From contig OV121097.1 in assembly GCA_921293015.1 (NCBI GenBank), positions 16,057,924 through 16,121,923 on the forward strand: DNA of 64,000 nucleotides, in the 5' to 3' direction. The notes under the pieces were generated by a model that worked only from the letters and a program-made list of their open reading frames with translations, searched no databases and had not been told where the DNA came from. Shown piece by piece: positions 16,101-25,100 of the stretch (position 1 is its first letter; the number at the start of each line of letters is the position of its first letter). Position numbers and translations under genes: made by a program. This DNA comes from Phorcus lineatus. Taxonomy: Eukaryota; Mollusca; Gastropoda; Trochida; Trochidae.

Positions 16101-19100
16101 GCTTTAGACTGATGATATTTTGCTCACAAATAGTTGGGGAAAGAACTGTGTCAGTTCAATTTGGATGATAAGTGCATCAGAAGGAGAAATTTATTTTCTT
16201 CAGACCTCTCATATAAATTGACAATCTGTTTAATAAAATGTTTTGAGAAGGCAAATTGTGAAATTGAAGCTTTACCTCCATTCCAGTGTCATCTTCAAGC
16301 AGGGCTACGAGTTCACAATCTGAAAATGGAAAGGGAATAATATTGATTTAAAAAAAAATCTTAAATGGAAAAGAAAATGATGGGGGAGGGGGACATTTCA
16401 TTTTTATCATCAGAATTACATCTTGGAAATGCTGCTTACATACAGAACAGTTTAATAATCATTCCTGCGGATATCTTTTTTTTGGGTTTGACATATGAAG
16501 GATTTGGGTGAGCAGGAAGAAATCTGATATTTCAAATATGATATTTCTAAATATCAATAAAGCCTGTTATGTGAGAATATTAAAACGACTTGTCAATGGC
16601 CATGAAACATTTCAATATTTTAATTCTGCCTTATAATGTTTGATTACATAAAGTGCTGCTTGCAAGTAAAATTGCAGGTAGTTCCTTTGACATTTGGTTA
16701 CAAAAAGAATTCTGGTATTACCTTGACAGATTTTGTTTTTGATGTCTCTCATGAGCGGACCCATGCCCGGTTCGTTTGAGCTGTAAGGATTACCCAGCAT
16801 CCTCCCCTGCAGGAAGTCTTCCTGTTGCGGATCTTTCTCCAGGATCATGAAGAACTCTGCTACATCGTTCTCTTCCTGCAGCACAATTACTTTCAAATTG
16901 ATTTTTTATTCAGCAAGTCTTTGAAGCAAGACACTATCTGCCACGTGAATGTGAAGCAAGCTGATTCAGGCTTCATAGCTCAGTCTTTCAAAAAGTATTG
17001 TGCGCATTTTTTTCAAGGCTAGAAGAATCTACAAGGGAGACAGTCTAAAATTCTATTGTTATTATCAATGAAAACTTAAAGAGTTTGGTTACTTGAAAGG
17101 CAAAAGTTCATACAGAGTCTGACAGTTGGGCAATGTATCTATATCTGTACTGAAAAAATAAGTGAACATAATACCAGACAAGCTCCTCTTATTATCATGT
17201 AACCTCAACTCACAGGGAAGATGATGCTGCAGAGCCTCTCGAAGATGAAGACAGGAGACCGGTTGTCCTTCAGTGGGTATTTCTTCACAGTCTGTACACA
17301 CACAGACATAAACTCCTTTGTTTCACTGTCCGTGCCTAAAAGAAAACAAAAACGTCATTTGAGAGTGGGATATAGTCACATGCTAACTCTATTGACTGTT
17401 AATTTTTGTTTTTTCAAGGTTATTTTTTCATGTTTGGGGACTTGAAAATTTAAGACCACTTTCAGTCACTTATCCAGAAAGTTGGAAAGGGGTTCACCTA
17501 TTAAAGGGGTTGGGGTTTAACCCGGGGCTTCACACTGACAATGGAATTTTTTTCTCCAAATAATCTAAAAAGAGTTCGGGGTTCAGGATGGTTCAAGGGT
17601 GATTTCACATAGACTGGGTATATTGTTCCCTTTACAGAAATAAATTGTTTTATAATCCTGAAGGTTACTGCGGCCACATTTTCCCTTCTGCTAAAGTTGC
17701 CTAATCCCTGCAAAGACTCTCTAATTATCTGCTATGAGTTCAAAAGAAATTTTCAGCAGTGTCACCTATGTCTCAATAAGAAGTTGAAAACTTTCATCAG
17801 CAGGCAACTGTTGAAGAAAAGTCTCACAGCTCATTCTTAAAAAAAGTTATTCTGACTGACTAGCTTCTTTAAAGTTCCTACCTGTGGTGAGTTCCTCCAA
17901 GAGTTCCAGCAGTTTCTCCTGTGTCTCATCGATGAGCTTGGTGCGCTGGACGACCAGTTTCCTCAGGGACAGGTACCCATTGAGGATGTACCCGACCAGC
18001 CGGTTCTTGTAGTGCTGTTTCAAACTCTCCTGCTCCACAAATGTTGACAGCAGCTCTGCAAGTAAAAGATGATAAATATAACTCTTCTTTCCATATAAAG
18101 TTGCATGCCATATTCATCTTACCGAACTTCTTGTTTTTCCTTTCCTTTACAGTCGTGTAGTACTTGTATTTGATGTTGCTCTCACTTACAAACATACAAA
18201 TAAGCTGACATTGGGTGCAATAAGACAGGAACTAATAAATCATTTCCCAATACTTTGACTAGTTATTTCTAGGCACATGTAGATCCAAAATGTTTTTGGG
18301 CCCTTAAAGGGCCATCAAGTATGTTGATGTTTCTAATACAGCATTTTTTTCAAACCCCAAACAGAATGTATCACTCGATAGAAAAATTATTCATCTACAA
18401 TATGATACAAGAAAGATAATTTATTATTCACGACAAGTATATGTATTTAATGCCCAAAGACACCTACCCTCTCAAAAAGACGCGCGTCACTGAATATGAT
18501 GTCATTACGCGGAATTCCCTGACTTTGAGTACTACGTCAGCCCGTGACGTAGAACACAATAACAAAGATGGCAGATGTTTCAAGGCTAACGCAGTCGGAA
18601 AGGAAAAGAAGGGAAATCCAGCGTGATGCTCAAAGGCGAATGTCTTCAGTCTGTATAGGCAGCGCAATAGAACAATGGATATCGTTGGGTGAGCGATTGA
18701 AGATTGACGACGATGTATTAGCCGTCACTCGGATTGATTAGTAAGTAGAATATTCGTTACCGTTGTTTACAGTGAAAAAGTTTACTCGTCTATCGTATTT
18801 TACATCATGGAACGTTATTGAGATTCATCAACACTGCTCCAAGCTCAGTGCAAGTGCCAGCTCAACTCCTGTAGACATCTGGAATTGAAGCTGCAAGTTA
18901 CGACAGTGACACTGCACGGTATATTGAGTTCAAATAAGACCTGAACAAAATTTCTATATAAATCAAAAATTTTCACAAGATGTCAGTCATAAAATTCAAA
19001 ATTTTTAGATTTTGTCCATAACATTGCATAAAAATCTCATGTTTTACTTTATGTAGAGGTGTCAATTATTTACACAATAAAAAACAAACTTTTATTTTTG

Positions 19101-22100: not shown

Positions 22101-25100
22101 GCAAATCATCTGATCTTGTTGCCTGTGGTTCTGGAGGATCTGAAGAATCACCATTGCCATCTGTCTCAATCAGGTGTAAGATTGAAGGATCTCGCTCAGC
22201 AGCCAAGCAAAGCAGCTCCTTAGCCTTCTCTTCATTGAGCTTGTTAACCTGTTCCTGTATATAAAATATACTAATATTCAATTGATGAATATGAAAAGTT
22301 CATAACCTGAGATGAAGTGTTTGTTGTAATTGATATGTATCCATTGATAAAGTGGTCTAAGGAATTATCTCAGGTGACTGGGTGGAGAACAGTTCTCTAC
22401 GGCAGACAAAGTTGCCAAACCCCTGCGGGATTCGATCACTAACCTCCTGATGAAAAGCCAAACGCACTAACCACTGCGCTATCACCCCCTTGGGTGTCTA
22501 TAACTTATTTCATGTATGTACACAGGGTCATAATTGAATCCTTATCACCTTACGAGTCTGTATACAAGATCTTTAGCTTTCTAGGACTTTTTGGTATAAA
22601 TATAGAAAACAGTTTTTTCAGGTTTAGGTTGTTATTAGGAGTTACAAGGTCAAATCTAAATGTAAAATAATTTAATTTGGAAATATATCCTTCCACAAGA
22701 TTTCAGATGTAGTAGAACAAAAGTTCTAGAGAAGATGAGAAAATAATATAAAGTTTGTAGATAGATTGGTGCCTTGCCATAAATGAACCACAGATAAGCT
22801 TAAATTATCCAAGATATAGGGTGATTGATTATCACTTGTCATTTAGTAAATGGAATACTTTCATGACATTTAATGAACCAACATCTTTTTTCCAAATTTT
22901 ATGAAGATGTGTATTACTCTCACAAGCTTGTACAAACCTGAATTTTATTTTTCCTCTCCCTCCTCAACTCGGTGAGAATTTCTTCATAACTAGTTTTCTG
23001 CTCCTTTTGTTTCCCCCTACTCCCTTATCCCTTGCCACCTGTCTTCTTGGAAGCTGCAAAAAATAGTCATTTAGTTGAGCAAAAGAAATAGCACACAAGC
23101 TAAATAAACAAAAATGCTTTTCAACCCTTACTGACGATAATGTAAACAGTTGCAGTATAGAAACAGACAGGATCGAAAAACACTTTAAATGTGGAAGGTG
23201 TTAATAAAATTCACTTCATAGTTTTCGCTTTAGTTGGTGTCTGCTTTGTATCTATGAAATAAAATACGTTATCATTATAAGTTAATGCATGACAGTTACT
23301 TAAAGAATCCTAATGGAAATCTTAATTACAAATGTGAAATAATTTTATCCTTTGATATCCTCATAATAACTAATAATGGTGACCTTGGCCGCCAGTATCA
23401 TTTTTTTATTTCTTTTAGAAAACAACCAATTCTAGTGTGTGGCAGGAAATCATTTGTCAGTACAAAAATATAAAATTACCTGATTGACGCATCTTTCCAC
23501 TCAAAGGGTAAGATGACCTTCTTCTACTCGCCCCCTGTCCTGTTGGTATTGATTCTTACTGACCAGAAAAACGGATATATTCCTTATTTATTTCTTCAAA
23601 ATGTCATCTGACAAAGAAAAGATAATTCTGTACAAAATGGAAAGGTGAATAACAACAGATTATGCTAGGTAAAATATCCATTACTTATTGTTTATGTATC
23701 AATAAAAATAAATAAGAAATTTATACCGAAGTGAGAATCACTAGATTCAGTCTGCAGTACAATATCCTAGTAAATAATATAAGAACAAACAACTCCTTGG
23801 CCGGATCGTGATATTCGAATTATACTTCAAGAACATTATGACTAGAAATGAAATTAGATAATGATTTAATTGATAGATCGGTAGTTTTGAATTACGATGA
23901 GTATTGTTAGGAAATATCGTCATATGAGTGAACATAAAATTCATTGTTGTTCTACGTACACTGTTGATAATAAACGCTCTTTTACAATCTGTTTCTCAAA
24001 TAATTAACTTATGATAATGAAAATTATAATATTCATATAAACAAAAAAACTTATAAAGCATAATGTCAGTATAAACTCATTTACCTCGACATTCTCCAAA
24101 ACTTTCCACGTTGCTTTTCTTTTCCGTCCCTTCGACTCCATCTTTGTTTACAGTGAGCGAGTCAGCAACGACCATAATGCTTTGCGCGAGAAAATAATAG
24201 ACTCGATCTATAAATAGACTGGGGAAACACCTTTACTAATTAATTCGATTTCTCGGCTTATTTGGGGTCGAAAAAATCAGCGGAAAATTATGTGAGTATA
24301 TCTCGATGAGATTGATTTTTGGCAATGATCGGAAAATATCATCAACATACTTGATGGCCCTTTAAGTGAATGAATTATTTAAATCTATATCCTAAACCAT
24401 CTAATAAATGGAAAGAAACATTCATGTACAAAATAAAAAAGATTGAAAAGTAGTAAAATGAAAGTCAAAATTTTAACTGTAGATCCAGCACTATTTCTCT
24501 TTCCCCAGCGGCAAATCCTGAAAACATTCCTTTGAGTTTTGGACGACTTTCCTAATGACATATGACAGATCGTAACGGTGTGTCACCAAGTAATTCAACA
24601 CCTTCAGCGTTGAGAAAGCAACTGACCTGTGAGAGACTTGAGAGCAAAGCCTTGTGCCAGGTCAGAGCTGAGGGTTGTCTCCTCCAGGTACTCCAGATGC
24701 TCCACCTCCTGCAGTCATACAAATAGTGTTAGACACACAAGTCAGACAGAGGAGTTTGTTTAAAACACATTGCACCAAGAGCAAGACAGACTCCTCAATT
24801 ACATAAATCAAATATATTTTCAACGATAAAATCTACAATTTCAGAGAAATAATACTAATACTAATGATGATGATGATGATGATGATGATGATGATGATGA
24901 TGATGATGATGATGATAATAATAATAATAATAATAATAATAATAATAATAATAATAATAATAATAATAATAATAATAATATAAAAAAATTGTTTAACATC
25001 AACAGAACTTGAAAACATTTATACAATCACATGAGATTTTTATAGTCTATATAAAAAGATAGTCTTACCTTTGTGATGAGATCTCCGAGATGGAAGAGGA

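Follow-up and report, generated by a model that had tools for sequence, protein, structure and literature searches.

A probable Kolobok transposon relic in a UBR4 intron of Phorcus lineatus and its KolX-bearing relatives

Structure of the element in the UBR4 intron

A stretch of 64,000 nucleotides from the gastropod Phorcus lineatus (assembly GCA_921293015.1, contig OV121097.1, positions 16,057,924 to 16,121,923 of the forward strand; hereafter the window) contains an element of 6,054 bp at 18308-24361 (window coordinates, excluding the flanking TTAA), and this unit is very likely an old copy of a Kolobok DNA transposon of the Kol0 lineage, internally deleted and non-autonomous. Its arms, 18303-18329 and 24340-24366, were found to be inverted repeats of 27 nt with 100% complementarity, each comprising the 22-bp repeat AGGGCCATCAAGTATGTTGATG, TTAA and one flanking base. 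When 21 of the 22 bases were used as a search pattern with up to three mismatches, exactly two places in the window matched, namely the two element ends, and 100 shuffles returned none. The perfect 22-bp inverted repeats with TTAA on both sides, which a first-pass annotation made from the sequence alone had described, were thus confirmed.

The remnants of two genes facing each other were mapped inside the element (Table 1) by alignment to the predicted exon chains of L009, a full-length relative in the same genome. Of the 13 exons of a predicted transposase gene, the plus strand has retained exons 1-4, 12 and 13, along with the last 20 nt of exon 11. A gap of 2,869 bp relative to L009 had removed exons 5-10 together with 49 of the 69 nt of exon 11, and all catalytic motifs are therefore missing from the window copy. 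The transposase remnants, when translated from the aligned exons, contained stop codons and could not be read through. The pattern at the deletion joint occurred once in the genome (up to three mismatches), and thus no second copy of the window derivative was seen. With gaps excluded, the window copy was 92.5% identical to L009; their noncoding parts differed at 339 of 4,111 positions (8.25%), and further gaps of at least 20 bp between them measured 155, 50, 21, 576 and 23 bp.

The minus-strand gene corresponds to KolX and has kept exons 1, 2, 5, 6 and 7 and 29 of the 48 nt of exon 3, out of seven exons. The Pfam family P2RX7_C (PF20478) was recognised in two minus-strand open reading frames (ORFs), 21307-21696 (E = 1.9e-16) and 21997-22299 (E = 1e-6), and the first of these also matched P2X7 chains in PDB (E = 7.2e-11). 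The window KolX is broken by a stop codon at the start of exon 2, the absence of exon 4 and the partial exon 3; the remnants, once joined, run out of frame afterwards, and both ballast-domain exons are individually open. The two ballast exons, compared with those of L009 over 173 codons, gave dN of 0.033 and dS of 0.152, which is the pattern expected if most of the divergence arose in working elements. Of the two inward-facing multi-exon genes annotated earlier, the layout was therefore retained, whereas the genes themselves proved to be remnants with stop codons.

Table 1. Features of the window element and its target site (window coordinates).
Feature	Position	Strand	Basis
TTAA, left target-site copy	18304..18307		sequence
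Left 22-bp terminal inverted repeat	18308..18329	+	repeat and pattern searches
Transposase exon 1 remnant	18568..18740	+	alignment to L009 exon chain
Transposase exon 2 remnant, 100 of 111 nt, acceptor unaligned	18819..18918	+	alignment to L009
Transposase exon 3 remnant	19155..19226	+	alignment to L009
Transposase exon 4 remnant	19721..19885	+	alignment to L009
Joint of the 2,869-bp deletion	20253..20254		alignment; joint pattern found once in genome
Transposase exon 11, last 20 nt	20254..20273	+	alignment to L009
Transposase exon 12 remnant	20669..20765	+	alignment to L009
Transposase exon 13 remnant	21078..21347	+	alignment to L009
KolX exon 7, second half of ballast domain	21394..21663	-	Pfam and alignment to L009; stop codon of L009 lost
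KolX exon 6, first half of ballast domain	22003..22254	-	Pfam and alignment to L009
KolX exon 5 remnant	22938..23053	-	alignment to L009
KolX exon 3 remnant, 29 of 48 nt; exon 4 absent	23223..23251	-	alignment to L009
KolX exon 2 remnant, opens with stop codon	23480..23558	-	alignment to L009
KolX exon 1, identical to L009	24085..24141	-	alignment to L009
Right 22-bp terminal inverted repeat	24340..24361	-	repeat and pattern searches
TTAA, right target-site copy	24362..24365		sequence

Two minus-strand ORFs outside the element, 17847-18113 and 25027-25245, resembled UBR4 residues 4241-4303 (9hxw_A, E = 1.5e-22) and 4166-4216 (9hxw_A, E = 2.3e-12), respectively. Because these ORFs flank the element on both sides, it sits in a UBR4 intron, as had been annotated. 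The coding sequence for the UBR4 residues between the two matched segments was not located by a search, and PDB returned nothing at E ≤0.01 for the UBR4-side ORF 24491-24661. Rfam gave no matches in the window at gathering scores. In addition, an ATG/ATA trinucleotide repeat was present at 24848-24980, about 0.5 kb past the right end of the element, and a minisatellite of 51-bp units (9.4 copies, several frames open) at 57792-58268.

Full-length and shortened relatives in the host genome

The genome of the host (958 Mb, 74 contigs) was searched with TTAA plus the 22-bp repeat, and 130 matches with up to three mismatches were obtained against none for a reversed control pattern, showing that the end repeat is not due to chance. 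Five places, L009 to L013, had two matching ends 9.6-9.8 kb apart. These full-length copies were 99.47-99.84% alike, had different flanks and carried TTAA on both sides in all five cases. The genome search with these ends, which the first-pass annotation had proposed together with a list of the copies that keep both genes, thus revealed other copies, five of them full length and with both genes; the possibility it had allowed for, that no other copy of the unit exists, did not hold.

On the plus strand of L009, a gene of 13 exons was predicted with GT-AG borders in all 12 introns and a product of 727 amino acids (aa), in which the motifs GDGRMDSPG, VTDAHPSV, FDVWH and SELEGFQNH (D, D, DxxH and E) follow one another. 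This chain was uninterrupted in three of the five copies (L009, L010 and L013). An ORF of 612 aa at another locus (L024), which is intron-free over this part, aligned with the L009 protein along the motif stretch. The minus strand of L009 was predicted to encode a seven-exon KolX of 297 aa, lysine-rich at its front and carrying the ballast domain; PF20478 was found in its exons, and the protein was identical in all five copies. L011 and L012 have the same altered exon-11 acceptor, and L011 has in addition a 26-bp deletion in exon 6. Since this acceptor change is common to two copies with different flanks, it fits a defective copy having been moved by the transposase of another. These two copies, C9:35948204-35957801 and C9:35962184-35971823, respectively, lie 4.4 kb apart in opposite orientation with different TTAA flanks, as if one were a short hop of the other. 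The close relatives of the window element in this genome look young.

The presence of the same gene pair elsewhere was monitored with a transposase fragment, which had 41 genome matches; eight loci picked from these were taken with their surroundings. The convergent layout of transposase and KolX was found in all eight, in seven of them within the stretch taken and in the eighth (L026) with opposite-strand KolX matches just beyond it, at C13:14754498 and 14755473. When inverted ends of TTAA plus RR (15 of 20 bases) were sought in these loci, a candidate was obtained in L025 only, the stretches not having been chosen to span whole elements. Five candidate elements of about 1 kb (L033-L037) have an end akin to the ends of the window unit and a candidate second end 991-1,001 bp away; TTAA stands at the second end in three of them and is one base off in L033 and L034. 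An 8.9-kb rearranged relative (L032) carries parts of both genes. P2RX7_C itself had at least 150 matches in the genome (150 scored among 228 candidates).

The commonest P2RX7_C type belonged to an 8.4-kb element, the L029 family, with ends TTAA-ACGGCCAGTTCGA and a full-length copy near C5:45702276-45710650. Its termini after TTAA are AC...GT and fall outside the RR/YY rule considered below. Probes of 40 bases placed along this element and searched with up to three mismatches found the left end at 211 places, the right end at 217, KolX at 80 and the region of the first transposase D at 8, and a control on the transposase side, placed so that its distance to the nearer end equals that of the KolX probe to the opposite end, was found at 20. 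KolX was paired with a left end at 32 of the 36 KolX places considered out of the 80 (C1-C13), the other four being dropped. All 32 distances were different, 29 of them below full length, one equal to it and two longer; four pairs of distances differ by 1-4 bases and each could share one deletion, and for the pair 3552 and 3554 the left breaks, read in the sequence, differ. Copy lengths were counted on C1-C12 among the places listed (about 100 of the 211 and of the 217), where 98 right and 91 left ends gave 87 end pairs after 11 right and four left unpaired ends were dropped. The lengths of these 87 copies showed two peaks, with 27 KolX-bearing copies of 27 different lengths at 4.7-11.1 kb, 56 copies at 0.57-1.14 kb and four in between.

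The breaks were then read in individual copies. Outside their internal gaps, which differ (2.7 kb and 2.0 kb), L039 and L040 were 99.95-100% identical to the full-length L029 copy, and the joints contained a 2-bp overlap and a 3-bp filler. Another KolX-bearing copy, L041 (C2:29445000-29452000), was identical to the full-length copy over 4.6 kb up to a point; its right end is exact with no TTAA beside it, no left end is within reach, and it is not a simple internal deletion. Among six more deleted copies, of which 1 kb each was read, five were unbroken up to position 4300 and the sixth is broken at 3632, the KolX end being near 3605; two other copies break about 0.4 and 0.7 kb past KolX. Since there is no pile-up of breaks where KolX ends, these data do not demonstrate selection for KolX. 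On a simple reading, the L029 copies would have been inserted at full length and then have lost their middles one by one.

Assignment to Kolobok

According to Kojima and Bao (2022, PMC9587614), Kolobok transposons of the Kol0 lineage encode KolX as a second protein, which bears the P2X7 ballast domain, and the P2X7 tail is proposed to derive from it. The Kolobok features considered here are a TTAA target, 5'-RR...YY-3' termini and a DDD/E transposase in which C/DxxH lies between the second D and E, followed by a zinc finger before E. The TTAA target-site duplication was found in the window copy and in all five full-length copies, and the termini AG...CT of all six agree with the RR/YY rule. 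The DDE and DxxH motif order was present in L009, L010 and L013 and was supported by the alignment to L024; it is absent from the window copy, where the exons bearing it are deleted. The putative catalytic residues were assigned from motifs, and candidate C/H residues lie between DxxH and E in both L009 and L024. KolX with its ballast domain was recognised by PF20478 in the exons of the window copy and of L009, with the P2X7 match in PDB.

The element and its relatives therefore share with Kol0 Kolobok, as characterised in PMC9587614, the TTAA, the RR...YY termini, the DDE transposase with DxxH (in the relatives) and the ballast-domain KolX, whereas the window copy differs in having neither the catalytic core nor an intact KolX. 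Both genes of the relatives are split, into 13 and 7 predicted exons. KolobokP, described in the same paper, likewise has a second protein encoded downstream of its transposase on the opposite strand, but that protein is a His-Me finger nuclease and not KolX. KolobokP was also rejected as a candidate on its long terminal direct repeats (about 450 or 660 bp), which were absent, the longest direct repeat in 18200-24500 being 28 nt. In derivatives of the P element and of Ac/Ds, internal deletion removes the transposase core and both ends remain. The window copy resembles these in the loss of its core; the superfamily is different, and for the window copy interrupted gap repair is proposed on structural grounds only.

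Several points weigh against this assignment. Both exon chains are hand-traced predictions. Pfam transposase families all stayed below the cut-off for the L009 protein and the L024 ORF, so that the Kolobok label is drawn from KolX, TTAA, the termini and the motif order. The best transposase hint was a sub-threshold Mutator-like match of an L029 fragment (24.3 bits, cut-off 26.5); for the L009 protein, AhpC-TSA also scored below threshold (22.1 bits, cut-off 26). The predicted transposase fold was of low confidence (L024 ORF, mean pLDDT 44.8). Furthermore, the order of insertion and deletion is a presumed one. The structure predicted for a KolX ORF from another locus (L031) had a mean pLDDT of 45.7 and was too uncertain for use.

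Alternatives, proposed history and implications

The introns of the window copy and its missing transposase core agree with the suggestion of the first-pass annotation that two spliced host genes had been captured between transposon ends. Such capture is highly improbable, because the full-length copies hold the same genes, the plus-strand one as a complete transposase-like gene, and the same pair is present at other Kolobok loci of the genome; both genes are the element's own, namely KolX and a gutted Kolobok-type transposase. The annotation had reported no recognisable transposase, which is correct for the window copy with its catalytic exons deleted and not for the relatives, which encode one. 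Its other suggestion was that one of the proteins belongs to an undescribed mobility system; such a system, with KolX or some other product standing in for the transposase, could draw on Pfam recognising only KolX domains in the window copy. It is scarcely credible given that the window KolX is broken, that both genes lie between these ends in the five full-length relatives and that the transposase of the relatives has D, D, DxxH and E motifs. We also considered a piggyBac element with a KolX-like gene, since piggyBac has a TTAA target and Kojima and Bao (PMC9587614) mention such a gene for a few piggyBac families. This is very unlikely, as the termini 5'-AG...CT-3' are of the Kolobok RR/YY kind and Pfam showed no piggyBac domain in the full-length protein (no match at E ≤1 in the 727-aa L009 protein or in the L024 and L029 ORFs). 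What the annotation had called a non-autonomous, cut-and-paste-type element between TTAA sequences was supported.

The probe counts of the L029 family (80 for KolX against 8 for the transposase core and 20 for the mirror control) and its two-peaked lengths raise the possibility that copies without transposase persist as KolX aids the retention or movement of its own copy, and that the window element was once a KolX-only element. We regard this as unlikely: the KolX of the window copy is broken, five of the six deleted copies have no break within about 0.7 kb beyond KolX, the breaks in two others lie about 0.4 and 0.7 kb past it, short copies without KolX outnumber those with it, and a mechanical asymmetry would account for the counts equally well. 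The more general proposal, that Kolobok copies losing their transposase retain KolX beyond positional expectation and that KolX helps the copy carrying it (a cis-acting or copy-favouring role), is doubtful. If it were true, elements with KolX but no transposase would form a class that arises repeatedly, the window copy being an old example, and the copy-specific deletions would imply full-length insertion and later gutting for most of them. KolX, with its lysine-rich front and ballast domain, is probably an accessory protein of transposition.

For the internally deleted Kolobok copy in the window, we propose that its ancestor would have entered a TTAA of the UBR4 intron by cut-and-paste insertion, that the transposase core would have been lost in one large deletion and that the copy would then have decayed; any later movement would have depended on transposase made elsewhere. 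The core deletion most likely, though with only moderate confidence, arose when repair of an excision gap was cut short. Interrupted gap repair after excision causes internal loss in other cut-and-paste elements, and the deletion pattern of the L029 family supports, without proving, a like origin for the window deletion.

The window unit is thus a well-explained relic of a known kind and no new system; with the full-length relatives in hand, the puzzle dissolves and a candidate undescribed mobility system is removed. The pattern of the L029 family is more interesting than the window element itself. Rump et al. (PMC7016195) report that, from sponges to molluscs, ballast-domain genes are linked to two markers, which they regard as ancestral synteny; should these genes be KolX, one of the linked markers might in fact be the Kolobok transposase. 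A genome with near-identical and structurally intact Kolobok copies bearing KolX makes the function of KolX directly testable.

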